Part shown: positions 4,070 through 37,523 of the stretch, one piece after another | Position numbering within the stretch: position 1 is the stretch's first letter | How the letters are laid out: each line of letters starts with the position of its first letter | DNA from: Candidatus Zixiibacteriota bacterium | GTDB lineage: Bacteria; Zixibacteria; MSB-5A5; GN15; JAAZOE01 | Direction of reading: 5' to 3' | Assembly (NCBI GenBank): GCA_030668485.1 | Contig: DAOUTW010000042.1 | Coordinates: 1-40,037 of the forward strand | DNA length: 40,037 nucleotides | Translations under genes and position numbers: made by a program | The notes under the pieces: generated by a model | The model's database searches: none | The model's input: only the letters and a program-made list of their open reading frames with translations | Told to the model about the DNA's origin: nothing

Positions 4070-4214
4070 TCCTCCTTAGGCGGGACAAGGTGAGGCTTGC
4101 AAGTAGTTGTTATAGTGAGGCTTATGGAAATTGGGTGATTCTGACCCGGTCCGGCCCCGGTTTTGCATTGATAGGAGGCGGTACAAAAACGCCGACTTTG
4201 CAAAGGAGACTATT

Positions 4215-4874
4215 ATGAGAAGAATTTTCATCGTTGGAACCTTGCTTCTGGTAGTTGCGGTCTTCCTGACCGTAGCCGGCTGCGATAAAGAGAAAATAGT
4301 CGAGACTACTGAATATATCCACGACGTCGAGTACATTGAATCACCCCCCGATACCGTTTTTGTTAGTGATACCACAACCATCAATTCCTCCGATACCGTT
4401 TTTCTGACTGATACAGTGGTTCAAATTAACCACGAATATGATACCGTGTTTGTTTATGACACCGTTACCACAGTACAGAATCATTATGATACCGTTCTGG
4501 TCCCGCAATGTTCCCCTAATGAATTGCTGGCGACATCTGCCCTGGAATATCGCTGCGATCCCCTGGTTCTTGAGGCGATCAATGCCGAATTCGGTCTCAG
4601 CGAGGGATGGATTCTCTACCTCTCTGCCTTCCAGATCGAGATTACACGACAATCCGCAAGTGTTTATGATATCTACGGAATAATCGACTATTGGACACCC
4701 GACTGGACCGGATTCTACCCCTTTGAATTCTTCTGGCGCATGACCTTTAACGGCGGCGATCCGGCCGACCCGGATAATTGGACTATGTCCGAACCTCCGG
4801 GTGCAGTTTCCGGCCATAATCCCGGTATACAGATGATCGAAGACCCATCCTATTCGCGACAGGTTGGTCGTTAA
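4215..4874 (+). CDS. lipoprotein with DTV-type repeat stalk
   Basis: A 219-residue protein. The ATG at 4215 follows AAAGGAG by about 6 bases and opens a lipoprotein signal with lipobox VAGC (Cys23); the frame extends further upstream but without a start that fits. Residues about 45-97 form a low-complexity stalk of repeated DTVFV/DT motifs (DTVFVSDT, DTVFLTDT, DTVFVYDT, DTVLV), of a kind that links many envelope lipoproteins to their functional domain. The C-terminal part (about 98-219) is rich in aromatic residues (IIDYWTPDW, FYPFEFFWRMTF) and looks like a small beta domain I do not recognise. It is a single-gene transcript, closed by the terminator at 4904-4934. The role is unknown; envelope location is well supported. 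Confidence 0.85.
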   Translation: MRRIFIVGTLLLVVAVFLTVAGCDKEKIVETTEYIHDVEYIESPPDTVFVSDTTTINSSDTVFLTDTVVQINHEYDTVFVYDTVTTVQNHYDTVLVPQCSPNELLATSALEYRCDPLVLEAINAEFGLSEGWILYLSAFQIEITRQSASVYDIYGIIDYWTPDWTGFYPFEFFWRMTFNGGDPADPDNWTMSEPPGAVSGHNPGIQMIEDPSYSRQVGR

Positions 4875-5494: not shown

Positions 5495-5790
5495 ATAGGA
5501 GGGATATTGAAGTGTGAACCGATCCTCGCCTGAAAGCGGGCGTTGGATGGGGCAGCGGTCGGGACGGAATGGCGAGAAATTAACCCAAACTTTATTAGTT
5601 GCCGTTCGGTATTTGTAACCTCTTGATATTATATAAATTACAAGATATTGGGGGCTCCCCGCAGGCCGAAAAATTTTAATACTAAAACTGGGGTTGTAAG
5701 CGTTTTTTGCGGAGAATTCGTATTATTAATCGTAAACAGGGGAAGAGCAGCGTCGATGAAATAGGTGGACAAAATCCTCAGGAGGCAGGC
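5495..5790 (+). other. leader region of the sigma-factor operon
   Basis: These 296 bases hold no gene I can support. Features seen are a small 6-bp hairpin without a T-tail near 5530, an AT-rich segment at 5622-5645 and an inverted repeat TTGTAA/TTACAA (5613-5618 and 5638-5643). I find no clear ECF-type promoter, although the promoter of the following operon should lie here. Confidence 0.4.
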
Positions 5791-6393
5791 TTGGAGGCAG
5801 CGAGGCGAGACAGAGCCGATCTGATCGAAAAAGCCCGTAACGGCGACGCCGGGGCCTTTCGGGAGTGTATCAAGCTGTATGGCTCGCGGGTCAATGCCAT
5901 AGCCTACCAAATGGTCGGTAACGGTGAAGACGCACGGGATATCTCTCAGGAGGTGTTTATCAGGCTTTACCGGTCGCTGGAGCGATTTAATTCCGATTAC
6001 TCTTTTACATCCTGGTTATACCGCCTGACCGCAAACCTCTCAATTGATTTCCTGCGTAAAAACGCGCGCCATCGACAAAGATCATTGGACGAGCCGGGGA
6101 ATACGGTTGACATAAAAGATAGAAGTCCGGGGCCGGATGACAATGCCGAAAGCAGTGAATTTTATGGAGCGATAAATCGACTGGCAGGGGAATTGTCGAT
6201 AAATCAGCGCCGGGTGTTTGTCCTGCGCGATTTGCAGGGATTTCCGACCGAAGAGGTGGCCGGGATATTGAAATGTCGTTCCAGTACCGTAAGGGTTCAT
6301 CTTGCACGAGCCCGGCGCCGAATAAAAGATGCCCTGATCAAACATTATCCCGATCTATTGGAGGTGATATCCGATGAGATGCCCGAAAGCTAA
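5791..6393 (+). CDS. ECF-type RNA polymerase sigma factor
   Basis: A 200-residue sigma-70 family protein of ECF type. Region 2 covers about residues 15-90 (AFRECIKLYG; DARDISQEVFIRLYRSL; FTSWLYRLTANLSIDFLRK) and region 4 about 127-185 (LSINQRRVFVLRDLQGFPTEEVAGIL, then STVRVHLARARRRIK); the two are joined by a polar linker. No ATG lies early in the frame. I chose the TTG at 5791 because AGGAGG (5780-5785) lies five bases before it and the length then fits the family; an open frame back to a TTG at 5707 has no such site. The 3' end overlaps the anti-sigma gene by 20 bases, so the two are translationally coupled. It should direct RNA polymerase to an envelope-responsive regulon under control of the next gene. 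Confidence 0.93.
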   Translation: MEAARRDRADLIEKARNGDAGAFRECIKLYGSRVNAIAYQMVGNGEDARDISQEVFIRLYRSLERFNSDYSFTSWLYRLTANLSIDFLRKNARHRQRSLDEPGNTVDIKDRSPGPDDNAESSEFYGAINRLAGELSINQRRVFVLRDLQGFPTEEVAGILKCRSSTVRVHLARARRRIKDALIKHYPDLLEVISDEMPES

Positions 6394-7159
6394 AATGATG
6401 CTGGCGTTATATGTGGGGGGAGACCTGCCCGAATTCAAAGCCTCGCGGCTGATGGCGCATCTCCAATCCTGCGATGAATGCGCCGCCGAACTGAAAACAT
6501 TACGGCAGTCACGAGTCGCTACGGAAAAAATCGGAGGGAGTGATATTCCGAAAGCTTTGCCTGCCGATTTTGCCGATCAGGTTATTGGCATTGTCAGCGC
6601 CGGTAAATCATCGTCATTGAGACAGGTGTGGTTCCGGTCAGGGTTTCAGAGAATGCGACCGGTCGCGATTCTCAGCGCGGTAGTAGTGATCGTACTAATT
6701 GCGGTCGGTGTGACTCAAATGGTTAAGGACAATAAAATAGAGTCCGTCGCTCGATGGCGGATGGAATTGATCCAAAGCGTCGGCGGCAATGGCACAGGAG
6801 TGGCGTGGGAGACGATACCTAATCTTAATGATGTTTTTGAAACACCGGTTCGGATGGATCAATTCGATCCGCCGCGCGAAGCGGGAGTGTATGCCGTCAT
6901 GCATCGTATCGAAGCCGAGGGCGAGCCGCCTCGTTATGTTATCGATTATTGCGGCGAAAGCCGCCGCCTGGGTCCCTTCCGGGGGCACCCCTGGATTAAC
7001 CAGAGCAAAGGTCGATTGTTATCTCGCGCCGGGTCGGAAGAAAATGTCTATATAGCGGTCATGCTCATGCCCGATTCAACCCCAAAAGATCGACGCGACA
7101 TCGAGGCGGTCCTGATCGAGGCGTTTAATCCCTATTTTAACAGGGTGAAAGGAGCGTAA
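6374..7159 (+). CDS. zinc-finger anti-sigma factor with GIY-YIG-like C-terminal domain
   Basis: A 261-residue protein in three parts. Residues 1-45 form an anti-sigma zinc-binding domain: Cys3, then HLQSCDEC with His29, Cys33 and Cys36 in the HxxxCxxC pattern. A single membrane helix spans about 95-117. The rest, predicted to face the periplasm, reads from about 167 as a GIY-YIG-type domain: AGVYAV (the GIY position, Tyr173), VIDYCGES (the YIG position, Tyr192-Gly194), RRLGPFRGH (Arg197-His205), then RRDIEAVLIEAFNPYFN (Glu244, Asn256), the usual final motif with Glu and P-x-x-N. A nuclease fold as the sensor part of an anti-sigma factor is not something I know. The start ATG has GAGGT about six bases upstream and overlaps the sigma gene. 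The anti-sigma role is firm; the GIY-YIG reading is by motif order only. Confidence 0.88.
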   Translation: MRCPKAKMMLALYVGGDLPEFKASRLMAHLQSCDECAAELKTLRQSRVATEKIGGSDIPKALPADFADQVIGIVSAGKSSSLRQVWFRSGFQRMRPVAILSAVVVIVLIAVGVTQMVKDNKIESVARWRMELIQSVGGNGTGVAWETIPNLNDVFETPVRMDQFDPPREAGVYAVMHRIEAEGEPPRYVIDYCGESRRLGPFRGHPWINQSKGRLLSRAGSEENVYIAVMLMPDSTPKDRRDIEAVLIEAFNPYFNRVKGA

Positions 7160-7163
7160 AATC

Positions 7164-7784
7164 ATGCGTAGGATGAAATATGCTATAACCGTTATGGTAG
7201 CTTTAATGCTCACGGGATGCTGGACACTGTCGATCCATCCCCTGTATACCGATAAGGATCTGGTTCAAGATCCGATGCTGGAAGGCAAATGGTATCCGGC
7301 CGATTCGCGCGACGTGATCTGGATATTCGAACATGATGAGGGGGGACGTTATCAACTCAGCATCATCGAGGAAGGAGTGAAGGAGCAGCTGGAGAATATG
7401 GAAAATGATGGTTCGCGACTGATGCTGACGGTCGATCCGATAAGAGATTGCCGACTCATTGTCCATTTGTTCAAACTGGGGGATGACCTCTTTCTGGATA
7501 TGTTTCCGGCTTACCCCGAAGAGGTCAATGAGATTTTCGCATTTCATCTCATCCCGGCCCACACCTTTGCTCGGGTGTCAATTCAGGGTAATGTTCTGAT
7601 GCTCTCGTTTTTTGATATGGCATGGCTGGAGAAAAGCCTAAGTGAAGGCAAAATCGAAATCAAGCATGAAAAAAGCGATGATATGATTGTTCTGACTGCC
7701 GGAACTGAGGAATTACAGGGATTTGTCTTGGATCATCTGGATGAGGCCTTCGAGGACGCCGAGGAGATGCATCGTCTGGAATAG
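7164..7784 (+). CDS. lipoprotein, third gene of the sigma-factor operon
   Basis: A 206-residue lipoprotein with lipobox LTGC (Cys19) after a short hydrophobic signal. It begins four bases after the anti-sigma stop, with AGGAG nine bases before the ATG, so it is co-transcribed. The mature part starts SIHPLYTDKDLVQDPMLEGKW, then strands that look like a compact beta domain (WIFEHDEGGRYQLSIIEE, RLIVHLFKLGDDLFLDMF) and an acidic C-terminal helix. I recognise no named family. A plausible role, from position only, is as an envelope partner or target of the sigma/anti-sigma pair. The operon ends at the hairpin at 7831-7859. Confidence 0.85.
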   Translation: MRRMKYAITVMVALMLTGCWTLSIHPLYTDKDLVQDPMLEGKWYPADSRDVIWIFEHDEGGRYQLSIIEEGVKEQLENMENDGSRLMLTVDPIRDCRLIVHLFKLGDDLFLDMFPAYPEEVNEIFAFHLIPAHTFARVSIQGNVLMLSFFDMAWLEKSLSEGKIEIKHEKSDDMIVLTAGTEELQGFVLDHLDEAFEDAEEMHRLE

Positions 7785-7907: not shown

Positions 7908-10900
7908 TTATTTCAAGAGAATCATTTTCTTCGATTCATTGAAAACAGAAGATTCGAGCCGGTAGAAATATATGCCGCTTGCTACCTGGCGTCCTTCATT
8001 ATCCCTGCCGTCCCAGATGATATTGTGCCGGCCGGTTTCCATATCGCCGTCAATCAACGATCTGACATTCTGTCCCAGGATATTGAAAACCGACAATGAA
8101 ATCGGGCCCGTTGTTGGAACTGTGAACTGAATAGCCGTCGTTGGATTGAACGGATTGGGATAGTTCTGTCCCAAATCCCAGGTCAGGGGCAAAGCGACGG
8201 TCGTTTTGGGGCCGGGCTCGCCAAAAAGGGTAAACGGATAAGCGCCCATGTCATTGCGGGTACCGTCCGGATCGAGATATCTCAGGCCCGGATCGCCGGT
8301 GTTGATACACGGGGAACCAAACCTCAGAGTATAGTCGGGGTAATAAAGCGGATCTTCGGAGATGCTATAATGCCCCGGAATGGCGTTTGAGTAATCGGGA
8401 TGATTATGCCAGACATTATTGTAATCCAACTCGTCCCAGTTTCCATAAACACCATACTCATAAGAATCGGTGATGATGTTGTTCTTGGCCTTGCCCTGAA
8501 CACCGGTAAAGATGCCGCGGTAATTAGCGTCGAAGGTGTTGTTGACTACCTCCGTTCGGGCACCCAGATTCCAGATACAGGCGATTTCATTATTTCGTAA
8601 GAACAGGTTGCGCGTGATGATCGGGGAGGTATTATCCATGGTCCGGATAACGCCGCTGCTGCGAGAACCGAGATCGCCCCGGTTGTAAGTAAAGATATTG
8701 TCCTTAATCAGGGGAGCGGCGCCGTCGTCGATTCTAAATGAGAACACCGCCCGGCACTCGGTGACGGTAAATCCCGAGAACATTGAGGTTTCATCTTCGC
8801 CGTGCTCCATTTTGATAACAGCATCTTCCGGATTGGCCGGATAAAGTTTCGTACTGTCGGGGCCTCCCCGGGTCATAAGTTTGCTGCTGTACCCGTGAAA
8901 ATCGATATTCTCCTCGTATGATCCGGGATAGACGATAATATCGGAACCGTTACCATGGTCGATGGCGCCCTGGATATTATTGGCGCCATCGGAAATGACG
9001 TAAACTGCGTGGAAAGCGCCCATATCATTGCGGGTACCGTCCGGATCGAGGTAACTTTCATGAGGATGGCCCCGGTCGATGCAAGGCGAATTATGGGCCA
9101 GGTGGAACCAGCTCTCCCCAGGTTTGATGTACATGGGATTTTCTGAAATATTATTCGGTCCGTGCAAAATAAAGGTGTAGTCGGGGTGATTGTCCCAGGC
9201 GTCATTGTAGTCGATATCGGCAGGCGGCCAGTTGCCTGAGAATCCTTGACGTTCGGAGCTGGTTACGATATTGTTGAAGGCAATCGGATTGCCATCGCTG
9301 TGCAAACCGGCAAGGTTCTTTTGGAAAGTGTTGTTAATGATCTTGGCCGAGCCGGCAACGATATAGACGCAAGCAGGAAGCGTGTTGCCGATAAAGAGGT
9401 TCCGGTTGATATACGGATTGGTATTGTCGATTTTGATCACACTGCTGGTGCGGACGACGCCGAATGGATTCGGACGATTGTCGACAAAGATGTTGTTCTT
9501 AATTGCCGGATTTAACGCACGAGACAAATCGACAGTATGTTGCGCCTTGAAACCTCGCACGGTGAATCCTGAGAAACAAGCCCCGACTCCTTCGTCGCTG
9601 ACCATCTTAACCGCCGGCAAGAAGATATCATGTGGTTCCAGAATGGTCATGTCGGCGCCATAGAACCCGTTAATCACAATCGCCTTGCCCTCGTAGTCGA
9701 GATTCTCCTCGTATAATCCGGGGCGAACCTGAATGGTGTCGTAATCATATGCTACGGTTATCGCCCGTGAAATCGTCTCAAATGGATCGTCGATGGTCCC
9801 GTCACCGGTAAGGTCACTGCCATATGTCCCATCCACCCAGATTGTGGTCGGAGTCGGTATTACCGGATCCTTGACCAAGGTCGGATCACCGCAGACGGTC
9901 ATGCCGTAATGCCAGGCTATTTCGCTATTGCTGAAGCCGCCGCCAGCTATGGCTGTAAACCAATCGGCAAAAGCCTCGCCTATGTTTTCACCGAGTCCGA
10001 ACGGCTCATAGAAGTATTGAAATCTCAGCATGGCTCCGGTTTTGGTGCTGCCGACCGATCCCAAACCATAGGTGTCGCAGAAGATATACCAGCCGCCCAT
10101 ATAATTGGTGGAGGTAAAACGTGAATTGGAACAGGCGAAGAGATTATAGAAAAGAGCCGTCGGATCAATATCGGTTACCTCATAATACCAGGTCGAACCG
10201 CCCCCTCCGCCCGGCACTGCGAACGAATGATGGGATGGGCTGGAATGAGCGCAGACCTGGATGAACTCATAATTATGAGTCAGCCGATCTTCATAATCGT
10301 AGCTGGTGGTGACATACTGGTCTCTTTCAAGGACGACACTGTCATAGGCCAGACCCATATTGGAGGCCCAACTCGAACCTGAGCCGTACCAGTCATCGTC
10401 GACGTACATTAAGCCCCGGTCCTCCAAACCGATGTCTCCCATTCGATAGCGATGATTTTTGTCGAAATAGCCCTGCAGCAAAGCCACTTCATCGGCTCCG
10501 CCGTAAGTCAGGGTCGACGCCGTCAGCCGTCCCAGCCAGATTTCAGGCTCGACATCTCCGGAGTGCTGATCGTATTTGCCGTCGGTATCGATGTCCTCCC
10601 ATAACCCGTCCATATCCATATAATACAGGTCACAGGGGAATTCCTCATGGCCCCAGTAATCGAACTCAAACCAGGGCACCGGCAAATCACCGATAAGAAC
10701 CACGCCGGCCATTCCGGCGGCATACCTTGTCAGCAGGAAGGCCTTAAATTCTTCCGGAGTACCTCCTTCGATCAGGTACAGGGAAACGTTGTATCCGTCA
10801 CGACTGAGATCGATGATGTACTGATCGATTGACGACTCAATGTACGGATAAAGATCGGAATTGATAAGGACGCAGAAATAGATATCGTCCTTGCTTCCCG

Positions 10901-11147
10901 AGGTCGGATTGAAATCGCCCAGATGCAGATAGTCAAACGATTCCGGCTTGCCAATGATCAAATTCCATTCATCATAGGTCATCGGCTCATCATCGCCGAC
11001 CCAGTGAGTGACTACCAGGGTGTCGTAGTCATCCAGAGGCTGTTGCGCCATTGCCGTATTACTTGCAGAGATTACTGTTAGGGCAAGGAAGGATAGCAGC
11101 AGAAACACCCGGGATACCATACCGGGGTGAATTTTGCAGGCAAACAT
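7908..11147 (-). CDS. secreted C25-like peptidase with twin beta-helix domains
   Basis: A 1079-residue exported protein. A signal peptide ends near AMA|QQ (about 35); AAGGAGGT lies just before the ATG. Residues about 90-425 resemble the caspase-like C25 (gingipain) domain: strands LIGDLPVP and WLGRLTAS, a candidate catalytic His301 in CAHSS, and Cys339 in LFACSNSRF. Two right-handed beta-helix halves follow (about 435-715 and 716-975), each with a PG.YEEN segment, NN.F/NNI rungs and the closing phrase LDPDGTRNDMGA. The C-terminus (about 995-1079) is a FlgD-like/T9SS-type module beginning NYPNPFNPTT. Such proteins are exported and may be cell-surface processed. Catalysis is inferred from the His/Cys pair; activity and cleavage preference are unknown. 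Its stop is close to the shared terminator at 7831-7859. Confidence 0.88.
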   Translation of the reverse strand: MFACKIHPGMVSRVFLLLSFLALTVISASNTAMAQQPLDDYDTLVVTHWVGDDEPMTYDEWNLIIGKPESFDYLHLGDFNPTSGSKDDIYFCVLINSDLYPYIESSIDQYIIDLSRDGYNVSLYLIEGGTPEEFKAFLLTRYAAGMAGVVLIGDLPVPWFEFDYWGHEEFPCDLYYMDMDGLWEDIDTDGKYDQHSGDVEPEIWLGRLTASTLTYGGADEVALLQGYFDKNHRYRMGDIGLEDRGLMYVDDDWYGSGSSWASNMGLAYDSVVLERDQYVTTSYDYEDRLTHNYEFIQVCAHSSPSHHSFAVPGGGGGSTWYYEVTDIDPTALFYNLFACSNSRFTSTNYMGGWYIFCDTYGLGSVGSTKTGAMLRFQYFYEPFGLGENIGEAFADWFTAIAGGGFSNSEIAWHYGMTVCGDPTLVKDPVIPTPTTIWVDGTYGSDLTGDGTIDDPFETISRAITVAYDYDTIQVRPGLYEENLDYEGKAIVINGFYGADMTILEPHDIFLPAVKMVSDEGVGACFSGFTVRGFKAQHTVDLSRALNPAIKNNIFVDNRPNPFGVVRTSSVIKIDNTNPYINRNLFIGNTLPACVYIVAGSAKIINNTFQKNLAGLHSDGNPIAFNNIVTSSERQGFSGNWPPADIDYNDAWDNHPDYTFILHGPNNISENPMYIKPGESWFHLAHNSPCIDRGHPHESYLDPDGTRNDMGAFHAVYVISDGANNIQGAIDHGNGSDIIVYPGSYEENIDFHGYSSKLMTRGGPDSTKLYPANPEDAVIKMEHGEDETSMFSGFTVTECRAVFSFRIDDGAAPLIKDNIFTYNRGDLGSRSSGVIRTMDNTSPIITRNLFLRNNEIACIWNLGARTEVVNNTFDANYRGIFTGVQGKAKNNIITDSYEYGVYGNWDELDYNNVWHNHPDYSNAIPGHYSISEDPLYYPDYTLRFGSPCINTGDPGLRYLDPDGTRNDMGAYPFTLFGEPGPKTTVALPLTWDLGQNYPNPFNPTTAIQFTVPTTGPISLSVFNILGQNVRSLIDGDMETGRHNIIWDGRDNEGRQVASGIYFYRLESSVFNESKKMILLK
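8241..8276. repeat. internal 36-bp direct repeat, copy A
   Basis: Matches 9015-9050 with one mismatch in 36 bases. Both encode the LDPDGTRNDMGA phrase that ends each beta-helix half of the peptidase. The identity is much higher than in the rest of the two halves. Confidence 0.85.
9015..9050. repeat. internal 36-bp direct repeat, copy B
   Basis: Partner of 8241-8276. It marks the end of the first beta-helix half in the peptidase gene. Confidence 0.85.
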
Positions 11148-15472: not shown

Positions 15473-15546
15473 TACGCCCAGGAGGATTTGAACCCCCAAC
15501 CTTCTGGTCCGTAGCCAGACGCTCTATCCAGTTGAGCTATGGGCGC
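15473..15546 (-). tRNA. tRNA-Arg (anticodon ACG)
   Basis: A 74-base cloverleaf on the minus strand. The acceptor stem is GCGCCCA/TGGGCGT with a G-T end pair and discriminator A. The D arm is AGCTCAACTGGATAGAGC. The anticodon stem TCTGG/CCAGA encloses the loop CTACGGA, anticodon ACG at 15510-15512. The T arm has GGTTCAAAT. CCA is not encoded. ACG is usually deaminated to ICG to read CGU, CGC and CGA. The promoter at 15577-15604 lies just upstream. Confidence 0.98.
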
Positions 15547-21108: not shown

Positions 21109-22635
21109 TTACTGTTTATATTGAGGAATATAAATGGCGAATTCCCCGGCGCTCTCAGTGTACTGTAATATCATATTGTCCAACAGAATAGGAGTCTCGA
21201 TCGGTCCCCAATTTTGTTCTATCCGGAGAGGCGCCAGCCGATGGCAAATGAAATAGGATGGTTTTTCAGAAATAATTTTATTTTTTACATCTTCGAAACT
21301 GCTTTCATTCACCGCAATGAACTGCTTTGAGGTCAATTCCGAGTACATAATTACAGCGTTCGAGGTAAAAAATGGGGAGTTAAAAATGACCGTCTGATCA
21401 TCCTCGAGGTTTGTTTTCAGCCAGTCGATAGCCGGCTGCACAAAGGATGGATATTGAGTGACTGGAGACACCGATGCCAGTTTGGACAGCATTCTGTTGT
21501 CCACTTCGCGGTAGTTGGGACAGAGGATTATAGTCCACAAGAGAGCGGAGAAGAGAACAATTTTGAGCTTCAACCCGGCATGGCCAAAAGGTCGAAATCT
21601 TTGGGCCAGATCGAAGCTGCCATGGGCAGCAAAAATGCAAAGGATAGTACCCGGCAGTATAGTGTACCGTGCCAGGGGTGATAATTCCCCGGTGATAATC
21701 GATTGGTAGAGATATATCGCGGATTGAATGGCCAAAAGTATAATCCATTCCATCCCGGTGCGGCGCATTATAGATCGGATCATACCCCAAAACCCGCCGA
21801 GAGCAATCAGCGGTGAAAGGCTGATGATGATAACTCCCGGCCAGAAGGCCGCCCTGTATATCATAGTTTTAAGATTACCCAGACTGTCAACCGTTTGTTG
21901 CGTGAGAGCGGAATGCTCCGATGAGGCGGCGTTCAGAGAATAGAGCATGTCACCGGTTTCCCGAAAGCTACCATACAACCAACTCAAGATGAACAGCGCC
22001 GGAAGAATTGAGACAGCAACGGCACCAAAAATGAAGCGGCTTCTGCCGGTCGGAGAAGCGTGCAATGATTGGATTAATAACGATACAAAAACAAACGGTG
22101 GCAACAGCCAGGCCTCGAAACGAATCATCACCGCTGCCAGCATCGCCACGCTCAGCAGAACCATCTCGCCTGTGGTTTGCTTGTCAAGGAAACGGTGATA
22201 GCCGTACATGGATGCGACCATGAACAATATAAACAGGCTTTCACTTCCGGCAATGTTCCCGAATTTGATATGTATGGAGTAGAGTGCAAAACAGGCGGTG
22301 GCAAAATACGCTTTCTCTCGATCAAAGATGCGCGCAACCAGTCCCCAAAACAGAGGCAGTGTCAACAGCGAAGCGACCAGGCTGACCAGCCGCGGGACCA
22401 GTTTGACATTGTCCCAGATCATGAGCACAATACCGTTGATATAAAATTGAAGTGGGAGCCAAACCGAGGATTCGCTGTTGGGGTGCCAGATGATAAAGGG
22501 ATGGTGCGACCAGTTCAATGAGATAAGACTCCGGATAATTGAATCGGCCCCAAAGTTGGAAGAGAAGGCAAAGGTTATTGCCCGAATCAGCAACGACGCA
22601 AAGATCACAATTAATGAAAAGCGCCTTATATCCAA
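21109..22635 (-). CDS. GT-C membrane glycosyltransferase (PMT/ArnT-like)
   Basis: A 508-residue integral membrane protein with about ten or more helices up to residue 385 and a soluble C-terminal domain of about 120 residues. The layout follows the GT-C fold of the PMT_2/GT39 group: an acidic residue soon after the first helix (FGADSIIRSL), a first periplasmic loop with HPFIIWHPNS, and later helices with a positively charged loop. Such enzymes use a lipid-phosphate sugar on the periplasmic face. The start is TTG at 22635, with GAGGGG seven bases upstream. It is the last gene of the glycan operon, 26 bases after the GNAT gene. No clear terminator follows. Substrate unknown. Confidence 0.85.
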   Translation of the reverse strand: MDIRRFSLIVIFASLLIRAITFAFSSNFGADSIIRSLISLNWSHHPFIIWHPNSESSVWLPLQFYINGIVLMIWDNVKLVPRLVSLVASLLTLPLFWGLVARIFDREKAYFATACFALYSIHIKFGNIAGSESLFILFMVASMYGYHRFLDKQTTGEMVLLSVAMLAAVMIRFEAWLLPPFVFVSLLIQSLHASPTGRSRFIFGAVAVSILPALFILSWLYGSFRETGDMLYSLNAASSEHSALTQQTVDSLGNLKTMIYRAAFWPGVIIISLSPLIALGGFWGMIRSIMRRTGMEWIILLAIQSAIYLYQSIITGELSPLARYTILPGTILCIFAAHGSFDLAQRFRPFGHAGLKLKIVLFSALLWTIILCPNYREVDNRMLSKLASVSPVTQYPSFVQPAIDWLKTNLEDDQTVIFNSPFFTSNAVIMYSELTSKQFIAVNESSFEDVKNKIISEKPSYFICHRLAPLRIEQNWGPIETPILLDNMILQYTESAGEFAIYIPQYKQ

Positions 22636-22661
22636 AAAACTACCCCTCGTTTTAATCGGAT

Positions 22662-23693
22662 TTAAAGCCAGTCGGTATCGGCAAAGGTAAGGAAAAAGTC
22701 GGAATAACGCAATTGTTTCGATTCTTCGGAATAGGGGAAGAGAATGATGGAATAGTTGCTTTTGCGCTTGATAAACCCGGCTTTACTCAGCGCTTTGACG
22801 CAATAGCACGCTTCTGAGAGTTGAAAATGAATCGATTTTACTCGCCGCTTCTGGCAATATTCGATCAGAAGTTTTAACGCTCGCACCTGATCGTCGTGGC
22901 CGCTGTCGATGCAGAAATCGGCAATGGCGACAACTTTGTGTTCAAACCGGATGGCGATATATCCCAAAGGGCTCCGCTCATTATTATAAAGCTGCAAAAA
23001 TATGTACTTATTGGTCGGTACTGAGAAAAATCGCCAGACCAGGAAATCCCGGTCGCGCACCGCCATAACCGGATGAGCTTTTTTTATCGTTCCGTACTCG
23101 GAATCCCGAACGATCTCCTTCTCCTCAATCGGCTCAAGTTTAAATCCATCGGTGTTGACGGAGCCGAGATAAAATTTCTTATGAAGCACGATGGCAGGCT
23201 TCAAAAACAGACTGAGAATAGTTCGGAATATCCCGCCGCTTTCCAGCCGCTTGGCAAAAAACTGTGAAGTGAGCGGAAAGGAATAGGTATCCAGAGGACC
23301 GAACGCGGTAGCCCCGGCATTGAGCAAGGGCGTCAGGGCCAGACGATTGGGAAAGCCGATCAGAAATTCATACTTATGCTTCAATTGATCGTGCAGTTTT
23401 TGCTGGATAGAATTGAATATACGGCGCCGCCTGAAGTCGGGATGGACCATACCGTCAATCGCCTGGCCGATTTTGACGACTCGGCCATGATACCAGAGGC
23501 GCATCGGCATGATTACATATGACGCGACAACTTTGTTCGATTCCGGATCGCGAACGAGAAAGATATCGGCAGGGCCGGAGGGGTTAGTGGTGTAAAGCCA
23601 TTCAAATTTACGCGCCCGTTTCCCCGGATAAACCAATTTGTACAGCTTTACAACCGGCCGGTAGTCATCAGTCTGTTCGATTCGAATATCCAT
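22662..23693 (-). CDS. GNAT-family acyltransferase of the glycan cluster
   Basis: A 343-residue protein with a GNAT domain in its first half: SYVIMPM strand, then GMVHPDFRRRRIFNSI (about 81-96), a motif A with the R-x-x-x-I form that replaces the usual G-x-G. The second half (about 200-343) looks like another GNAT-like half (FLVWRFFSVP, LGYIAIRF, VVAIADFCID). The ATG at 23693 overlaps the preceding gene's TGA by one base (TGATG), so the two are coupled. A likely role is acylation of an amino sugar of the polymer, inferred from the operon. Substrate unknown. Confidence 0.85.
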   Translation of the reverse strand: MDIRIEQTDDYRPVVKLYKLVYPGKRARKFEWLYTTNPSGPADIFLVRDPESNKVVASYVIMPMRLWYHGRVVKIGQAIDGMVHPDFRRRRIFNSIQQKLHDQLKHKYEFLIGFPNRLALTPLLNAGATAFGPLDTYSFPLTSQFFAKRLESGGIFRTILSLFLKPAIVLHKKFYLGSVNTDGFKLEPIEEKEIVRDSEYGTIKKAHPVMAVRDRDFLVWRFFSVPTNKYIFLQLYNNERSPLGYIAIRFEHKVVAIADFCIDSGHDDQVRALKLLIEYCQKRRVKSIHFQLSEACYCVKALSKAGFIKRKSNYSIILFPYSEESKQLRYSDFFLTFADTDWL

Positions 23694-24733
23694 CAATCGT
23701 TTTTCGCTTCCTCAAGCCGAACAATCGGCTTTTGGCCGATATAGTAAACCCCCGATAACATTGCCCGGTATTGCCTGAAATCAAGGTTACTTCCGATCCC
23801 TATCCGGCGCAACAAGTATTTATTGTGGCCGGTTAAATTGAGTCCCGTCTCGGTCAATACGGCGCACTCAAAATGCCGGGCGGTTATCTCTACCACCTCG
23901 CGGTTGATATCCCGCCAGCGGCCGTTGGGATAGGCAAACTCGGAAATCGAAACGCCGGTAATCTCCTCCAGGTCGCGCTTGCTGCCGACAATTTCCTCTT
24001 CCAATCGGGCCGGTTCCAGCCGGCTAAGGATCGGATGATTCTGCGAATGTGCTCCGATCGTTATTAAGTCGTCAGCCGCCAGTCGGCGGACATTTTCGGG
24101 AGTCATCGGACTGAAATCGCTGAATCGATTGTCGTCGATAGTATCACCGAATCTTTCATATAGAGCCGCAACGACGTTTTCGTTATCGGTCGAAGCAACT
24201 GATTTGAGACGTTCGCAGATTTCATTATGGGCGCTGTAAATATTACGCTCGGAAGAGAGATTGTATTGACCCAAACTTAAATCATCTAGGTCAATCGCCG
24301 TAGGAGCATGCGATTTCAGAATAACCGAAATTAAATCAGGCCAGAGATAGAGATAGCGGTTACTCTGCGGCATGACGAAACGGCTGGTTATGAATATCGT
24401 GGCCGGGATGCCCAGCTCTTTCAGGATCGGATAGGCCAGATCGTAATTGGATTTATATCCGTCGTCGAATGTTACCGTTACCGCATGCGGTTCAATTTTT
24501 CCCGATTCCAGCATCGCCACCATCTCACGAAGCGATACCGGATGGAAAAACTGTCGGAGGTATTGCATCTGCTCTTTAAAAGTATCGATTGCGACCTGAG
24601 TCCATTCCCGGGTGGTGGGATTTTCAGTCAGTCCGTGATACATAAGTATCCGCGGATTGAAACGGGTGACATATCGGATAATTTTACCCGGTCCGGAAAG
24701 ACCGGCCGTTTTTTTTATTAAAGCCCTAATCAT
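23693..24733 (-). CDS. polysaccharide deacetylase (NodB-type)
   Basis: A 346-residue protein with the carbohydrate esterase 4 motifs: VTFDDGY (Asp90, Asp91), AHSQNHPIL (His229, His233) and FAYPNGRW (about 266-273). The Asp and two His residues bind the metal and hydrolyse N-acetyl groups. The distance between the first two motifs (about 135 residues) is longer than usual and holds an alpha-rich insert (about 140-215). There is no clear signal peptide, so it may act in the cytoplasm or be loosely membrane bound by its basic N-terminus. It overlaps the gene before it by four bases (ATGA) and the one after by one base. Confidence 0.93.
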   Translation of the reverse strand: MIRALIKKTAGLSGPGKIIRYVTRFNPRILMYHGLTENPTTREWTQVAIDTFKEQMQYLRQFFHPVSLREMVAMLESGKIEPHAVTVTFDDGYKSNYDLAYPILKELGIPATIFITSRFVMPQSNRYLYLWPDLISVILKSHAPTAIDLDDLSLGQYNLSSERNIYSAHNEICERLKSVASTDNENVVAALYERFGDTIDDNRFSDFSPMTPENVRRLAADDLITIGAHSQNHPILSRLEPARLEEEIVGSKRDLEEITGVSISEFAYPNGRWRDINREVVEITARHFECAVLTETGLNLTGHNKYLLRRIGIGSNLDFRQYRAMLSGVYYIGQKPIVRLEEAKND

Positions 24734-25872
24734 TGACCCCCGCCTCCGGAGGATTCGGCATCAATGATCGACTTTGCTCGTTTCTTGAGTGAAACCGGTA
24801 TAAAACGCTTTACGGTCTGAACAGTTTTCATGAACCAATAATACAAGCGGCCGGACAGGGTGGGAGGGAAATAAAGTCTATCTTTCATCTCGTGTGAGAT
24901 CGTGGCCCAGGTTTGCTTGTATTGCATATCGCCTCGAAGCATATCAAAAACTTCGATCCCCGCCTCGCACAGGTCCCTGATGCAATAATCGATAATCATA
25001 TTCCCAGGGCTGATTCGATTATGAGTCATGTCGAAACCGGACAAGTAAGCGTAAAATCGTTCCCGATATAAAAATCCATACAGGATGGCGACGATTTTGT
25101 CCTGATGGCGAATAGTGTAGTATTTAATTTCGAATGGCCGGCCTCTGGCACCGCTCAGAGCGGCATGGAAGTCCTTGATCTGCTTCCGGGCCAGAACACC
25201 GCTTTCTCCTTTGTGCTCCCACCGTGAAGTATGCAGATCGATCAGGGTCGCCAGAAGTTCGCCGGACATATTCTCTTTGTGATAACTGTATCCGCCGGCA
25301 CGATCCATGTAGTTTCGATTATTACGCAGGGTCTTGCGAAATTTTTTCTTTCTGCTTTTCAGGAAGTTCTCATAACCCCCGGTCAGTTCGGCGACCAGGG
25401 CTGTTTTCGATTCATAGATAGTTGCCTTATAACGATTGTCGGCAAGAAAGCGACCCAGAACATAGAGAGGGCTGCCCGGCAAGACATTCTCGAGATCAAC
25501 AATATATCCATTTTGAGTTAGATACCGGGCGAAGGCCGAAATCGCATCCGGTAGGGACTTTTCCCTGAATAGAAGGGGATTATAATCTGTAATTGCTCCG
25601 CCCAGGCAACGAACCACCGAAGCCGAAAACAGGTGGCCGATTTTCTTTTTGCATTCGCGAAGCGGTAGTACTGCAATCAGCATATCATCCGAGTAGGCGG
25701 CCAGAATCGCCAATCCCCGGTCGGCGGTGAATGAGCGGGCGGCATGGTATTGCCATTCCCACGAGCCAAAGACGGTGGCGCCTGGGCTCGACTCGAGCAG
25801 TTCGTTCCAGGACTGTTGCAACTCCTCCAGGCGATCGAGAGAATCTATCTTTTCGATAGTGATCTGTTTCAT
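24730..25872 (-). CDS. CelD/BcsL-like GNAT acyltransferase
   Basis: A 380-residue protein with the two-GNAT fold of the Acetyltransf_6 (CelD/BcsL) group. Diagnostic parts are TVFGSWEWQYH (about 33-43), a basic helix LKSRKKKFRKTLRNNRNYMD in the middle, YAYLSGFD, and the C-terminal EVFDMLRGDMQYKQTW (about 308-322). Family members occur in exopolysaccharide clusters and are thought to acylate polymer sugars. It overlaps both neighbours by four bases (ATGA), which indicates translational coupling. The short glycine tail (SSGGGGQ) has no known meaning. Confidence 0.9.
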   Translation of the reverse strand: MKQITIEKIDSLDRLEELQQSWNELLESSPGATVFGSWEWQYHAARSFTADRGLAILAAYSDDMLIAVLPLRECKKKIGHLFSASVVRCLGGAITDYNPLLFREKSLPDAISAFARYLTQNGYIVDLENVLPGSPLYVLGRFLADNRYKATIYESKTALVAELTGGYENFLKSRKKKFRKTLRNNRNYMDRAGGYSYHKENMSGELLATLIDLHTSRWEHKGESGVLARKQIKDFHAALSGARGRPFEIKYYTIRHQDKIVAILYGFLYRERFYAYLSGFDMTHNRISPGNMIIDYCIRDLCEAGIEVFDMLRGDMQYKQTWATISHEMKDRLYFPPTLSGRLYYWFMKTVQTVKRFIPVSLKKRAKSIIDAESSGGGGQ

Positions 25873-27374
25873 GATTCCATGGCCGCCTGTTGTTGATTAA
25901 GCAGCTTTTTGGCTACCAAATAAATGGCCGAGGCCCAGACCGAAAATTGAAACAGATGAGGATAATAGGTGGCGGTGATAAACTGACCGGCCACAATATA
26001 CCCCAAGAGGATAACGTCGATACAGTGCGAGAAATATAGAAGCGGTTTGCCGTCTTCTATTTGAGCCAGCATTTTCCGACTTTGTTTATTGACCAAGAAG
26101 ATGGAAGCAATAAACAGGATGTATATCGTAAATCCGACCAGCCCCATCTCGGTGATGATCTGAATAAAAACATTATGCGGCGACCAGTAGAGATTGGCCG
26201 AATCTTTTTCCCGGTACGTCCCACCGTAGGCATTGGGAAAATTACCGGTGCCGACACCGAAGATCGGGTAATCGCCAATCATGCTGAGTCCGGCGCGCCA
26301 GAGCTGGAACCTGACGCCGACCGATTCGTCATTCTCATATTCTTTTATCGATTCAATGCGCTCTACGTATTGGTCGGAAACCAGGTAGATGGCAGGTACT
26401 GAAAGGACGGCCAGCGTTACCAGACCGACCACCAATTTCTTTTCTTTGTAGAGAAGGTAGATAATAGTCGCCACCATCCCGACAAAGGCGCCGCGCGACC
26501 CGGTGAATATGATGGAGACGATGAACATGGCCAGAAGTACCAGCGATGCAATTTTTAACAGGCGGCTACCGGTCGATTTGAACAGGTAATAGCAGAGAGG
26601 GAAAGCGATACAGAGACCGAGGCCGAACTCGGAAGCATTGGCCAGAAAATAGCTGGAATAGCCGCCGACACCATTAACTCCTTCGCCCGACATTTTAAGC
26701 GCACCGCCGCCTCCCAGGACCGTTGTCCCGCCGACGATTATACCATAACCGCCCCGCCCGGTAGATCGTGTCATGCCGATCGTTAAATAGGTATATATCT
26801 GGACTAGGCTGACAAAACCGATTGAAAAAAGATACAACGTGATATAGTTGAGTATTCGCTTGGTGTTGTTTAGAAGCATAATCGCCATAAAGTAGAAAAT
26901 CGACATCTTCAATAGCTCAATAGTCGTTTCCACCGACGAACTGAACCAGATGGAAGTTATATTTGACAGCACCGCCGCCACCAAAAAGGCTATAAACATT
27001 TTATCATTGCGCAGCAGAGTGATATGAGTCTTTCCTTGAAATTTGCGATGAATTACCAGGCTAATCACAGTCAGAGCCAGCAAAAATATATTCGGTCGCA
27101 GGATAGCCAGGGAACTGAAAAGATCCTGGGGACGGAGGTAAACAATCAGTAAATATAAATAAAGACCGGATACCGGATATTTAAGGATTACCGCGACCAG
27201 CATAATCAGCAGGATGGGACCGAATATGAATTCCGGGTCGACCACAAATAGTAAGGCGCCGCCTATTACCGAGAGAATGACAGCGGTAATAAGAATACTG
27301 CGGGATTCGGAAGAAGGCCCAAAAGACCTCCTTTTTCCGAAATCAGTTCCTTTATGCTTTGTTGCAGGCGACAT
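25869..27374 (-). CDS. O-antigen ligase/polymerase (Wzy/WaaL-like)
   Basis: A 501-residue protein with about eleven predicted membrane helices. The family signature lies in the large loop: GVGTGNFPNAYGG followed by SPHNVFIQIITEMGLVGF, with the conserved His-Asn at about 400-401. A conserved Arg region (FTGSRGAFVGM) precedes it. Proteins of this family either polymerise lipid-linked repeat units or transfer the finished glycan to an acceptor; sequence alone does not separate these. The gene starts three bases after the stop of the GT4 gene and overlaps the CelD-like gene by four bases. In this cluster it is the only polymerase/ligase candidate. Confidence 0.93.
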   Translation of the reverse strand: MSPATKHKGTDFGKRRSFGPSSESRSILITAVILSVIGGALLFVVDPEFIFGPILLIMLVAVILKYPVSGLYLYLLIVYLRPQDLFSSLAILRPNIFLLALTVISLVIHRKFQGKTHITLLRNDKMFIAFLVAAVLSNITSIWFSSSVETTIELLKMSIFYFMAIMLLNNTKRILNYITLYLFSIGFVSLVQIYTYLTIGMTRSTGRGGYGIIVGGTTVLGGGGALKMSGEGVNGVGGYSSYFLANASEFGLGLCIAFPLCYYLFKSTGSRLLKIASLVLLAMFIVSIIFTGSRGAFVGMVATIIYLLYKEKKLVVGLVTLAVLSVPAIYLVSDQYVERIESIKEYENDESVGVRFQLWRAGLSMIGDYPIFGVGTGNFPNAYGGTYREKDSANLYWSPHNVFIQIITEMGLVGFTIYILFIASIFLVNKQSRKMLAQIEDGKPLLYFSHCIDVILLGYIVAGQFITATYYPHLFQFSVWASAIYLVAKKLLNQQQAAMES

Positions 27375-27377
27375 TGC

Positions 27378-28733
27378 TTAATCCACCGCCGATAATATTC
27401 GGTCGACTTTTGCGGCCAGTTGACGCCATTCAAATGAGTCGGCGTATTCACGGTTAACTGTCATTGCCAAGGAAGAGTTTTTCTTGCGTTCCATCAAGTC
27501 AATAATGGCGTCGGCGATCCTTTCGGCATCATCGAGAGAAACAAATATCTCAAGGCCGGAATTGAGAAGCATCCGATGCGTCGTGCCGTCGATACCGGCA
27601 TGGAGTATCGGTCGACCGATGCGCATATACTCAAATATCTTTCCCGGTAAGGCGCCGAGATGATAATACGGAGTACCTCCGGTCACCAGATGCATGACAT
27701 CGTAGGCGGGATACATCTTCATTAATTCGTCATGGCTTTTGAATCCGAGGTTATGCACCAGGTTGCCGATTTCATATTTTTCAACCAGATGATCGAATGA
27801 TTCGTCCGAAAATCCGATGATGCTGAAGGTCAGGTCGTCTTCTGTGTACCCCTTGGCTGCTAGAAGGCGCAACGCCTCGGCGGTACTGTCGCCGCTGTGG
27901 GTATACATGCTGCCGACGTAAAGAAGCTTCAGCGGTCCCTTGCTTCCCAAAGATGATCCGCAATCAATACCGGAAAACTCTTTCTCATTGAATCCGTTGG
28001 TCACCACAGACAACTTATCGCGAGGGATATCCGGCATCCGGGCCAGGAGACGGTCGACATCTCCGGGACTCATATTGATTACTGCCTTTGACCGCACCAG
28101 CGCCTTCCGCTCCAGCCACTTTTCGTATTTCTCCCGGATTTTGTATCGGTAGGGCTGATTGTCGGTCCAACTGTTTCTAAAATCCGTTATATACCGAATA
28201 CCGGTCATTAGGCGCAGCATCAATCCCAGGATTTGAACCGAATGAGGCGGAGAGGTGACCAGCAGATAACCGATATTTTCTCTCTTGATCATCCGGTAGG
28301 CGCGGGGAATATTTTTCAGGCTCCAGAGGATATAATTATCCGGTATCAGAATGAAATTATCAACCAGCCGGAAAGCGGGGGAGAGGATGAACTTTTTGAT
28401 CAGCCCGAAAAATCGTGTTTTCAATGAGCGCCTTGCTTTTGCTTCGTTGCTATCACCGGCTGTTTTTTGATATTTGCTGTATATCTTCCCCGTAAGTTTA
28501 CGTGGCATCGGAGCCGATGTCCTGATAACCTTCAGGCGCGGGTCTATTTCCTCGAAAAGAGATTTATCCTCGACACTCGAAAGATGAGCCGTGGCGGTCA
28601 ACAGCGTAATATCCCATCCCGCCTCGATCAAATACTTGGTGAAAAATACTGGCCGGTAAATGCCGCTGGTACGTGCCGGAGGGAAGTCGATCGAGATAAA
28701 CAACAGCGATTTTTTGCTATTACCCTTCGTCAT
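27378..28733 (-). CDS. GT4-family glycosyltransferase
   Basis: A 451-residue GT-B fold glycosyltransferase. The N-terminal half has SIDFPPARTSGIYRPVFFTKYL and DFRNSWTDN; the C-terminal nucleotide-sugar half has LLYVGSMYTHSGDS, HNLGFKSHDEL and PGKIFEYMRIGRPIL, the last taking the place of the usual E-x7-E segment. It would add one sugar to the lipid-linked repeat in the cytoplasm. The start is the ATG at 28733, which overlaps the flippase TGA by four bases; a longer frame to 28778 would lie inside the flippase gene. Sugar specificity cannot be read from the sequence. Confidence 0.92.
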   Translation of the reverse strand: MTKGNSKKSLLFISIDFPPARTSGIYRPVFFTKYLIEAGWDITLLTATAHLSSVEDKSLFEEIDPRLKVIRTSAPMPRKLTGKIYSKYQKTAGDSNEAKARRSLKTRFFGLIKKFILSPAFRLVDNFILIPDNYILWSLKNIPRAYRMIKRENIGYLLVTSPPHSVQILGLMLRLMTGIRYITDFRNSWTDNQPYRYKIREKYEKWLERKALVRSKAVINMSPGDVDRLLARMPDIPRDKLSVVTNGFNEKEFSGIDCGSSLGSKGPLKLLYVGSMYTHSGDSTAEALRLLAAKGYTEDDLTFSIIGFSDESFDHLVEKYEIGNLVHNLGFKSHDELMKMYPAYDVMHLVTGGTPYYHLGALPGKIFEYMRIGRPILHAGIDGTTHRMLLNSGLEIFVSLDDAERIADAIIDLMERKKNSSLAMTVNREYADSFEWRQLAAKVDRILSAVD

Positions 28734-30229
28734 GACGAACGGATTCCTCTCAGCCGGATACTTTTTATCATTGACCAAAAGGCATCAATCTCATAACGGT
28801 TGAAGACTCGCAGGATCAGGCACATCCCCACGAAAATAACCAGGCCGCTCCCCCCTCTGATTATCAGGGAAAGGAAGTTGTTGTCGATTTCAATCTGCAT
28901 TCCGATTATATACGCAACCGCGGTCGCAATTATCATCCGAAGATACAATAAGGGATCATATTTCAGCGGGTAGAACTTCTGGGAATAAATGCTCAGCGCC
29001 ACATACCTGACAAAGAAGGCCAGCAAGGTGGTGATCACTGCGCCCCAGTATCCCAGCCATTGAATGAGGAAATAATATCCGACCAGAGCCACGATCGCGC
29101 CATAGATATTTGCTATCCCGCGATAAATGGTTTTCTTCACGAAAAATATTCCGGCCGATGAAATCGAGGCCAGACCTATAAACATAAAGGCCAGAAGTAG
29201 TACCGGTACGACCCGGTACGCCTCATGGAATTTCGGGTCAGCCATGATAAAAATGAGATTTTTAACGCATAACGAATAAGGGGTGATAAACATCAATGAA
29301 AAAACCAGCATATATTTGTTGTAATAATTTATCGTTCGGCGACCCTCCTCGCCTTTTTTGTACAGGTCGAACATCTGGGCGTTCCAGATCAATTCAAAGG
29401 GACCATAAAACAGCGCCGGGAGGATAAGGGCGAACTTATAGCTGAGGCTATAAACGCCCAGCACCGATAATCCCGCGAATCTCTCCAGAAAGAAGCGGTC
29501 GGAAAAATGGATGACAAACATCGACAGGGTCGATATAATCAATGGCGCCCCGTAGCGAATCATCTGGCGGGCATGTTCGCCGGAAAAATCAAACCTGATT
29601 TTTCTCCGCGCCAGCACTGTCATGGCGATCAGAAACAGCAAATTCGATATTATCTGAGTATACAGAACACCCAGGACGCCCAGTTTTAATCCGACCACGA
29701 AAAGGATATTGAGGCTGACGGCAATAACGAAACGCCCCAGCGACACGGAAGTATATATCGATGATTTTTTCTCGGCCTGCAGATAAGCTATTCCGGCCGC
29801 CGATAGCATATCGAAAATTCCCGATACCGCTACAATCTTCACAAAAAACGCCAGTTGCGCGGCCGACTGCGTCGACTCACCGCTGTGAAAGACCAGTCGA
29901 GATATCGGACCGGCAAAAACTACAACCAGGCCATTAGCAATCAGAGCCATCACCACTATCGAGAAAAAGGCGGTGCTGATAACCTTCGTTTTGTCGCGTT
30001 CATCGCGGCAATCGGTGTAGAAACGGATAATCGAATTGGATATACCCAGGCCGACAACCATCCCGACAACGTACATGGTCAGATCCAGAAGTTCCAGGAC
30101 ACCATAATCGGCCGGAGTCAGGTAGGTCGTATAGATTGGGATCATGAAAAAGCCGATCAGCTTGGTCAGGTAGATCCCCACCCCATAGGTGATGAAATGT
30201 TTGGTCAGTATTTTGATATCCTGTTTCAT
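28730..30229 (-). CDS. Wzx-type polysaccharide flippase
   Basis: A 499-residue membrane protein with about fourteen predicted helices and the N-terminal pattern of the PST/MOP exporter family: HFITYGVGIYLTKLIGFFMIPIYTTYLTPADYGVLELLDL. Such proteins flip lipid-linked repeat units across the inner membrane. Together with the Wzy-like protein it points to a Wzx/Wzy-dependent route, not ABC-2 export. It follows the small deacetylase gene after 34 bases, the longest gap inside the operon, and overlaps the following GT4 gene. Confidence 0.94.
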   Translation of the reverse strand: MKQDIKILTKHFITYGVGIYLTKLIGFFMIPIYTTYLTPADYGVLELLDLTMYVVGMVVGLGISNSIIRFYTDCRDERDKTKVISTAFFSIVVMALIANGLVVVFAGPISRLVFHSGESTQSAAQLAFFVKIVAVSGIFDMLSAAGIAYLQAEKKSSIYTSVSLGRFVIAVSLNILFVVGLKLGVLGVLYTQIISNLLFLIAMTVLARRKIRFDFSGEHARQMIRYGAPLIISTLSMFVIHFSDRFFLERFAGLSVLGVYSLSYKFALILPALFYGPFELIWNAQMFDLYKKGEEGRRTINYYNKYMLVFSLMFITPYSLCVKNLIFIMADPKFHEAYRVVPVLLLAFMFIGLASISSAGIFFVKKTIYRGIANIYGAIVALVGYYFLIQWLGYWGAVITTLLAFFVRYVALSIYSQKFYPLKYDPLLYLRMIIATAVAYIIGMQIEIDNNFLSLIIRGGSGLVIFVGMCLILRVFNRYEIDAFWSMIKSIRLRGIRSS

Positions 30230-30263
30230 TCAGAACTTATCCGTTTCGACCCTTCTTTGCCTG

Positions 30264-30998
30264 TTATATCACACGATCCCTGATTCTCTTGATCAGGTTT
30301 TTGGCGGCTCCGATTATCCTGACACCGGAGGTGGCACTAAAATAGTCATCCAATTTTAACTGCCGCCGGTTACTTTTGACCTGAAATCTTTTCAGATATT
30401 TCAGATCTCTCCCGGCCCGATTGATGCCGGTGTATGAGGTCATGATCACTTCATATCCCAATTCGAGCGCCGTTTTTGTTACACGGTCGTTAATCCTCCC
30501 CATAGGCGCCGCCAGTGTTGTCACCGGCAATCCGATATTGTCTTCGATGACCTTTTTGGAATTATCCAAATCCGATTTAAGATCGGCCTGATTTAAACGC
30601 GTTAAATTTCGATGTGTCATTGAATGAGATTGAATGGAAAAACCTTGCATAGCAAGATTCCGAAGTGCCGGCCAGTCCAAGTAATATTCCTTCCCGACCA
30701 GGTCGGGTACTATATTCAAAATCGGTTTCAATTTATACTTGGCGATAACTTCGACCGCATCCTCAACCGATTTATGGCCGTCATCGATAGTTATCAAAAT
30801 CTGTCGATGATTCTTTCCCTCGTATTGGTCACGGTCGGTGATATTGGCCGGATCGACCATCCCATAACCTGAGGCGGCAATCTCTGACGCTTGACCGGCA
30901 AAATCATCCAGCCTGATCGAAAACGGAAAATCCTCCGTCTTGATGCCCGCCGGTTTATCCCGGTGAAAATAATGATATGTCAGAACCAGTAAATTCAT
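30264..30998 (-). CDS. small polysaccharide deacetylase
   Basis: A 244-residue CE4-like protein. The motifs are shifted from the consensus but in order: ITIDDGH (69-75, Asp72-Asp73), SHSMTH (124-129) and AAPMGR (163-168). The metal-binding Asp and both His residues are kept. It lacks a signal peptide and starts three bases after the GT2 gene. It differs from the deacetylase at 23693-24733 in size and lacks the long insert, so the two probably act on different sugars or at different stages. Confidence 0.9.
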   Translation of the reverse strand: MNLLVLTYHYFHRDKPAGIKTEDFPFSIRLDDFAGQASEIAASGYGMVDPANITDRDQYEGKNHRQILITIDDGHKSVEDAVEVIAKYKLKPILNIVPDLVGKEYYLDWPALRNLAMQGFSIQSHSMTHRNLTRLNQADLKSDLDNSKKVIEDNIGLPVTTLAAPMGRINDRVTKTALELGYEVIMTSYTGINRAGRDLKYLKRFQVKSNRRQLKLDDYFSATSGVRIIGAAKNLIKRIRDRVI

Positions 30999-31001
30999 AA
31001 T

Positions 31002-37483: not shown

Positions 37484-37510
37484 TCCTGCCAATATTTCCT
37501 TTGTATGTTT

Positions 37511-37523
37511 TGTGCCGGGCACA
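37511..37523. promoter_or_regulatory. operator-like palindrome ahead of the glycan operon
   Basis: TGTGCC-G-GGCACA is a perfect inverted repeat of two six-base arms. It lies 28 bases before the first start codon of the operon, and on the minus strand a TATAGA hexamer precedes it directly, so a regulator bound here could block transcription. No good -35 box was found at the right distance. Confidence 0.35.

Follow-up and report, generated by a model that had tools for sequence, protein, structure and literature searches.

GIY-YIG domains are known as nucleases that act in DNA repair, homing, restriction and defence, and the signals of anti-sigma factors are mostly obscure. In the 40-kb contig analyzed here (40,037 nucleotides of a 4.5-Mb genome, hereafter the window), a first-pass annotation made from the letters alone had read the product of one gene as an anti-sigma factor whose outer part has a GIY-YIG fold. 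The locus raises the question of what a nuclease fold might do on a protein that controls a sigma factor.

A sigma factor, an anti-sigma factor and a predicted lipoprotein encoded side by side

The gene lies between those of an ECF sigma factor and a predicted lipoprotein, with the following features:

5707..6393, + strand, ECF sigma factor with Sigma70_r2 and Sigma70_r4_2 (PF04542, E 1.7e-18; PF08281, E 9.5e-14; TIGR02937, E 1.6e-34)
6374..7159, + strand, membrane anti-sigma factor with a C-terminal GIY-YIG-fold domain (261 aa)
6374..6490, + strand, zinc anti-sigma domain (residues 1-39, C3...H29-x3-C33-x2-C36)
6659..6727, + strand, one membrane-spanning helix (about residues 96-118; N-terminus predicted inside)
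6839..7156, + strand, GIY-YIG-fold domain, predicted to be extracytoplasmic (residues about 156-261; from a model, structure matches and profile comparison)
7164..7784, + strand, predicted lipoprotein with lipobox L-T-G-C, separated from the anti-sigma gene by four bases

The start codon of the sigma gene (TTG) is uncertain. The sigma and anti-sigma genes share 20 bases, and their translation is likely to be coupled. The lipoprotein has no match in Pfam or NCBIfam, and the residue following the lipobox Cys is W or L, not Asp. By the sorting rule of E. coli, such a residue would direct the lipoprotein to the outer membrane.

An HxxxCxxC zinc anti-sigma domain had been annotated at the N-terminus, and this is confirmed by a Pfam scan in which residues 5-37 match PF13490 zf-HC2 above the cut-off (E 9.8e-5, 22.8 bits versus 22.2). 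Weaker NCBIfam matches to the anti-sigma families RseA and RsrA agree with this call, and C3, H29, C33 and C36 are invariant in an alignment of four orthologs. The annotated membrane helix corresponds to the only strongly hydrophobic segment of the protein, at about residues 96-118 with a hydropathy peak of 2.76 at residue 96. Because the zinc domain must face the sigma factor in the cytoplasm and one helix lies between the two domains, we infer from the sequence that the GIY-YIG domain is on the outer side of the membrane. A weak positive-inside difference across the helix (five K/R before it and three after) points to the same sidedness.

Two other features of the window were read by eye. 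A large secreted protein encoded at 7908-11147 on the minus strand has an N-terminal part that resembles gingipain-type C25 peptidases, followed by two regions of beta-helix-like repeats and, at its C-terminal end, a FlgD-like sorting domain. A one-strand cluster at 21109-37522 (minus strand) with glycosyltransferase, flippase, O-antigen-ligase-like, polysaccharide deacetylase and GNAT/FemAB-like genes is apparently a surface polysaccharide locus. A lipoprotein-like ORF at 4131-4874 (plus strand) carries D-T-V-x-V/L repeats after its signal (DTVFVSDT, DTVFLTDT, DTVFVYDT). Rfam matched the window at one place only, a tRNA gene at 15473-15546 on the minus strand.

Fold of the C-terminal domain

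The motif on which the annotation was based, GVY, Y-C-G-E-S, an Arg and I-E-x-x-L-I-x-x-x-x-P-x-x-N, is located as claimed, at G171-V-Y173, Y192-C-G194-E-S, R203 and I243-E244-x2-L247-I248-x4-P253-x2-N256. The window copy retains every signature residue (Y173, Y192/G194, R203, E244 and N256). The pattern E-x2-LI-x4-P-x2-N is found in UvrC proteins too, with a spacing equal to that between E244 and N256. In 300,000 shuffles of the domain, a strict composite pattern never arose and a loose one arose three times, and among 3,022 ORF segments from all fetched loci the loose pattern matched only the window protein and ten UvrC-type domains. The composite motif is no product of chance.

AlphaFold2 run on the whole protein from a single sequence was useless (pLDDT 34), but a C-terminal alignment of just four sequences (the window protein, L014, L015 and L016) sufficed for a model of residues 140-261 with pLDDT 80.7 and pTM 0.76. 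In this model, in which protein residue equals model residue plus 139, the core is strand-strand-helix-strand-helix (b-b-a-b-a), with b1 at 171-179, b2 at 187-196, a1 at 206-219, b3 at 225-231 and a2 at 237-251. The domain was originally placed from about residue 167. Its existence is upheld but its start is not, as a conserved E-x-P marks the beginning at about residue 156, and ordered structure leads into it from about residue 143.

When the model was compared with the PDB using Foldseek, the first five matches were all GIY-YIG nucleases, although with weak E-values of 0.1-0.5. With a second structure aligner the top 15 entries by Z were all GIY-YIG (Z 8.2 to 5.3), and the first unrelated entry followed at 3.1. 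These 15 include the GRXS16 N-domain (2lwf), UvrC (1ycz) and its mutants, T4 EndoII, I-TevI, R.Eco29kI, Hpy188I and a 5hmC-specific restriction enzyme (9u75), whose membership in GIY-YIG we infer from its rank among the matches. A Z of 7-8 would be no proof alone; it is the consistency of the matches and the gap to unrelated entries that decide. The best structural match, the N-terminal GIY-YIG domain of plant GRXS16 (Z 8.2 over 93 residues, rmsd 2.8), belongs to a plastid protein and is attached to a glutaredoxin, whereas the window domain is attached to a membrane anti-sigma factor. As judged from the model, its structure matches and the homology chain described below, the C-terminal domain truly has the GIY-YIG fold.

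A family of stand-alone relatives

The structure check and the profile check both favored the annotation, the latter by way of relatives. The window protein itself has no GIY-YIG match in Pfam, NCBIfam, PHROGs or PDB sequence searches, and its matches to VHL, ribosomal L10 and immunoglobulin were rejected as chance-level. Relatives of the domain that occur as small separate proteins do lead to GIY-YIG. For a 104-residue relative in genome G006 the best Pfam family is PF01541 GIY-YIG, just below the cut-off (E 6.7e-4). Others are found in G002, G047, G059 (in tandem), G068, G044 and G088, and on one Sulfitobacter plasmid and one haloarchaeal plasmid. A profile of the fused domains aligns to a profile of the stand-alone proteins with P 4e-18, and the latter aligns to 32 GIY-YIG domains of the phylum with P 2.4e-7 and a score of 40.9, whereas none of 200 column shuffles scored above 18.0. 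The fused-only profile is weak against GIY-YIG (P 0.017; 8e-4 against UvrC), so the sequence link from the fused domain to GIY-YIG runs through the stand-alone family. Against all PDB sequences, the stand-alone profile matched only GRXS16 (E 0.31) and UvrC (1.4), both weakly, and for a mixed profile UvrC was the top match (E 0.078), the motifs lining up. The stand-alone relatives form a small GIY-YIG family that is largely unannotated and falls under the Pfam cut-off.

No relatives were detected in a viral contig collection, and a phage collection gave chance-level matches or none. In a plasmid collection the window domain as query had no match, and the stand-alone protein L010 as query retrieved the Sulfitobacter relative. 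This gene (L017:2495-2800), annotated as a hypothetical protein on a conjugative plasmid of Sulfitobacter dubius, sits between genes for the specificity and modification subunits of a type I restriction-modification system. Two further loci (L038:9-648 and L037:523-2286) include two tandem stand-alone copies in one genome, and in both loci a MarR-like regulator gene adjoins the stand-alone gene, as read by eye; in L037 a GNAT-like acetyltransferase gene comes next. This may be a conserved neighborhood for the stand-alone family.

Recurrence of the fusion in the phylum

Among 132 genomes of the Zixibacteria phylum, other proteins that join a zinc domain, one helix and a GIY-YIG domain were found in three (L011/L014, L012/L015 and L013/L016), which together with the window genome represent three families. 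Matches in named records come from Candidatus Zixiibacteriota metagenome genomes. These four are the only fused sequences in the searched sets, and two of them are from one genus. In each of the three loci the order is ECF sigma factor, anti-sigma factor and lipoprotein as in the window, and the sigma factors are 43-44% identical to that of the window. A pattern search upstream of the four sigma genes revealed no shared ECF promoter motif. As this gene order recurs in independent assemblies, we reject an artefact of mis-assembly.

With the N-terminal part of the anti-sigma factor as query, the four fused proteins scored E below 1e-53 and the next anti-sigma factors 3e-13 or worse. The GIY-YIG domain and an adjacent lipoprotein gene are both absent from all 26 of the next-best anti-sigma loci of the phylum that were examined. 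At all four fusion loci, by contrast, the lipoprotein ortholog lies directly downstream of the anti-sigma gene, so where the GIY-YIG domain occurs the three genes stay together. The lipoprotein family as such is present in 29 of the 132 genomes, elsewhere away from the sigma pair. At two loci (L092:1492-3177 and L095:488-2227) it is fused to a C-terminal domain of roughly 370 residues common to both, which might show the binding target of the lipoprotein.

An enzyme or a binding domain

The first-pass annotation had offered two roles for the domain, a nuclease fold reused as a sensor or a protein that acts on extracellular DNA. The signature residues of the sister proteins bear on this choice. 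They are all retained in the window protein and in its nearest stand-alone relative (L010). In L011, the first Tyr is replaced by V and the Glu by T, and in L012 and L013 the first Tyr is F, the Gly is D, the Arg is T or M, and one or both Asn positions hold K. Signature residues are thus lost in all three sister proteins encoded in the same operon. R.Eco29kI variants Y49F and E142Q are inactive according to PDB titles, and we read these Tyr and Glu positions as strictly equivalent to those of the fused domains. The C-terminal parts of L012 and L013 are 84% identical, with a dN of 0.10 and a dS of 0.99 (dN/dS about 0.1), compared with 68% identity in the zinc domain; the GIY-YIG domain is the best-conserved part of the protein in this pair. 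Residue loss together with purifying selection is best read as the mark of a binding domain. Because all three sisters have lost signature residues, the sensor role is favored over action on DNA. This argument rests on the sisters, and the window copy, being intact, may be nearer to the ancestral state and could on its own still be active.

We read the three genes as one operon for envelope signaling. Taken together, we consider it probable that the GIY-YIG domain derives from a nuclease but serves outside the cytoplasm as a sensor or docking domain, not as an enzyme, and that with the lipoprotein it controls the sigma factor. The zinc domain would hold the sigma factor on the cytoplasmic side. 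The outer domain would have been taken from the small stand-alone family and kept as a binding domain, that is, a pseudo-nuclease, which would recognize a ligand or a protein partner, with the co-encoded lipoprotein as the first candidate. Binding, or its loss, would expose the anti-sigma factor to inactivation or proteolysis, as happens with other membrane anti-sigma factors, and thereby free the sigma factor.

The window copy could instead still work as a nuclease in the periplasm, or bind DNA as a sensor through the old catalytic groove, and so couple contact with DNA that is incoming or extracellular to the sigma factor. Its full signature with the UvrC spacing of E244 and N256, the equally intact L010 and the example of SNIPE, a membrane-bound GIY-YIG nuclease that hits incoming phage DNA from the cytoplasmic side (PMC13190303), are all consistent with such activity. 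We nevertheless consider it unlikely, as the signature is gone in all three operon orthologs while the domain is still constrained, the His position after the Arg is not retained, and no DNA-processing gene is linked. A second alternative is that the domain is a structural spacer, a stability element or a protease-cleavage module with no specific ligand. The occurrence of the lipoprotein family elsewhere in the phylum without sigma genes fits this view, but the domain is the most conserved part of the protein in the sister pair (84% versus 68% for the zinc domain), and a mere spacer has no need of a third operon gene kept in four of four loci. We judge this account improbable too. That the C-terminal part is not GIY-YIG at all, with a coincidental motif or an artefactual fusion, could be argued from the missing direct database matches and the weak fused-only profile but is very improbable given the model, the structure matches, the homology chain, the motif statistics and the independently assembled genomes that carry the fusion.

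Discussion

The protein shares Hx3Cx2C, an ECF sigma gene directly upstream and one membrane helix with RsiW and other factors that have a class I anti-sigma domain (ASDI) of the zinc type. Some 65% of ASDIs are bound to the membrane, and 48% of these carry the zinc motif (PMC7406223). What differs is the predicted extracytoplasmic part, a GIY-YIG fold that is missing at all 26 of the further anti-sigma loci examined in the phylum. We rate the circuit as an ordinary ECF/anti-sigma circuit in which the nuclease-derived outside domain is the unusual part. There is precedent for an anti-sigma factor as a receptor in RsiV of Bacillus, which is reported to bind lysozyme (PMC4183432); there the sensor domain is different and the ligand is known.

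Members of the GIY-YIG superfamily (PF01541), such as the UvrC N-terminal domain, I-TevI and R.Eco29kI, have the b-b-a-b-a core, GVY...YxG and an Arg after strand 2 in common with the window domain. They differ from it in that the latter is joined to an anti-sigma factor, is predicted to lie outside, has degenerate sisters and falls below Pfam detection. SNIPE is, as here, a single-pass membrane protein with a GIY-YIG domain, but that domain is cytoplasmic and catalytically required, and SNIPE is no anti-sigma factor (PMC13190303). The DUF4041 of SNIPE was absent from the window protein in a Pfam scan, and the order here is anti-sigma domain, helix and GIY-YIG. Excerpts of a phylogenomic survey of the superfamily describe GIY-YIG domains joined to domains of repair, homing and restriction and to ankyrin/LEM domains, and none joined to an anti-sigma factor (PMC1564403). 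A full-text literature search likewise returned no title or abstract opening on such a fusion.

A more speculative extension, which we hold to be unlikely, is that a living or only recently dead nuclease domain serves as an outside nucleic-acid receptor, through which DNA of phage or environmental origin, or nucleotides, would switch on the ECF regulon from the periplasm. If true, the circuit would be a transcriptional alarm that responds to DNA at the envelope. On the preferred reading of a binding domain, the fusion would add a new kind of sensor domain to the anti-sigma factors. Here a nuclease domain is joined to a signaling protein and appears to be strongly constrained after sister lineages lost the signature residues, which would make this a system for asking what a nuclease fold does without cutting.
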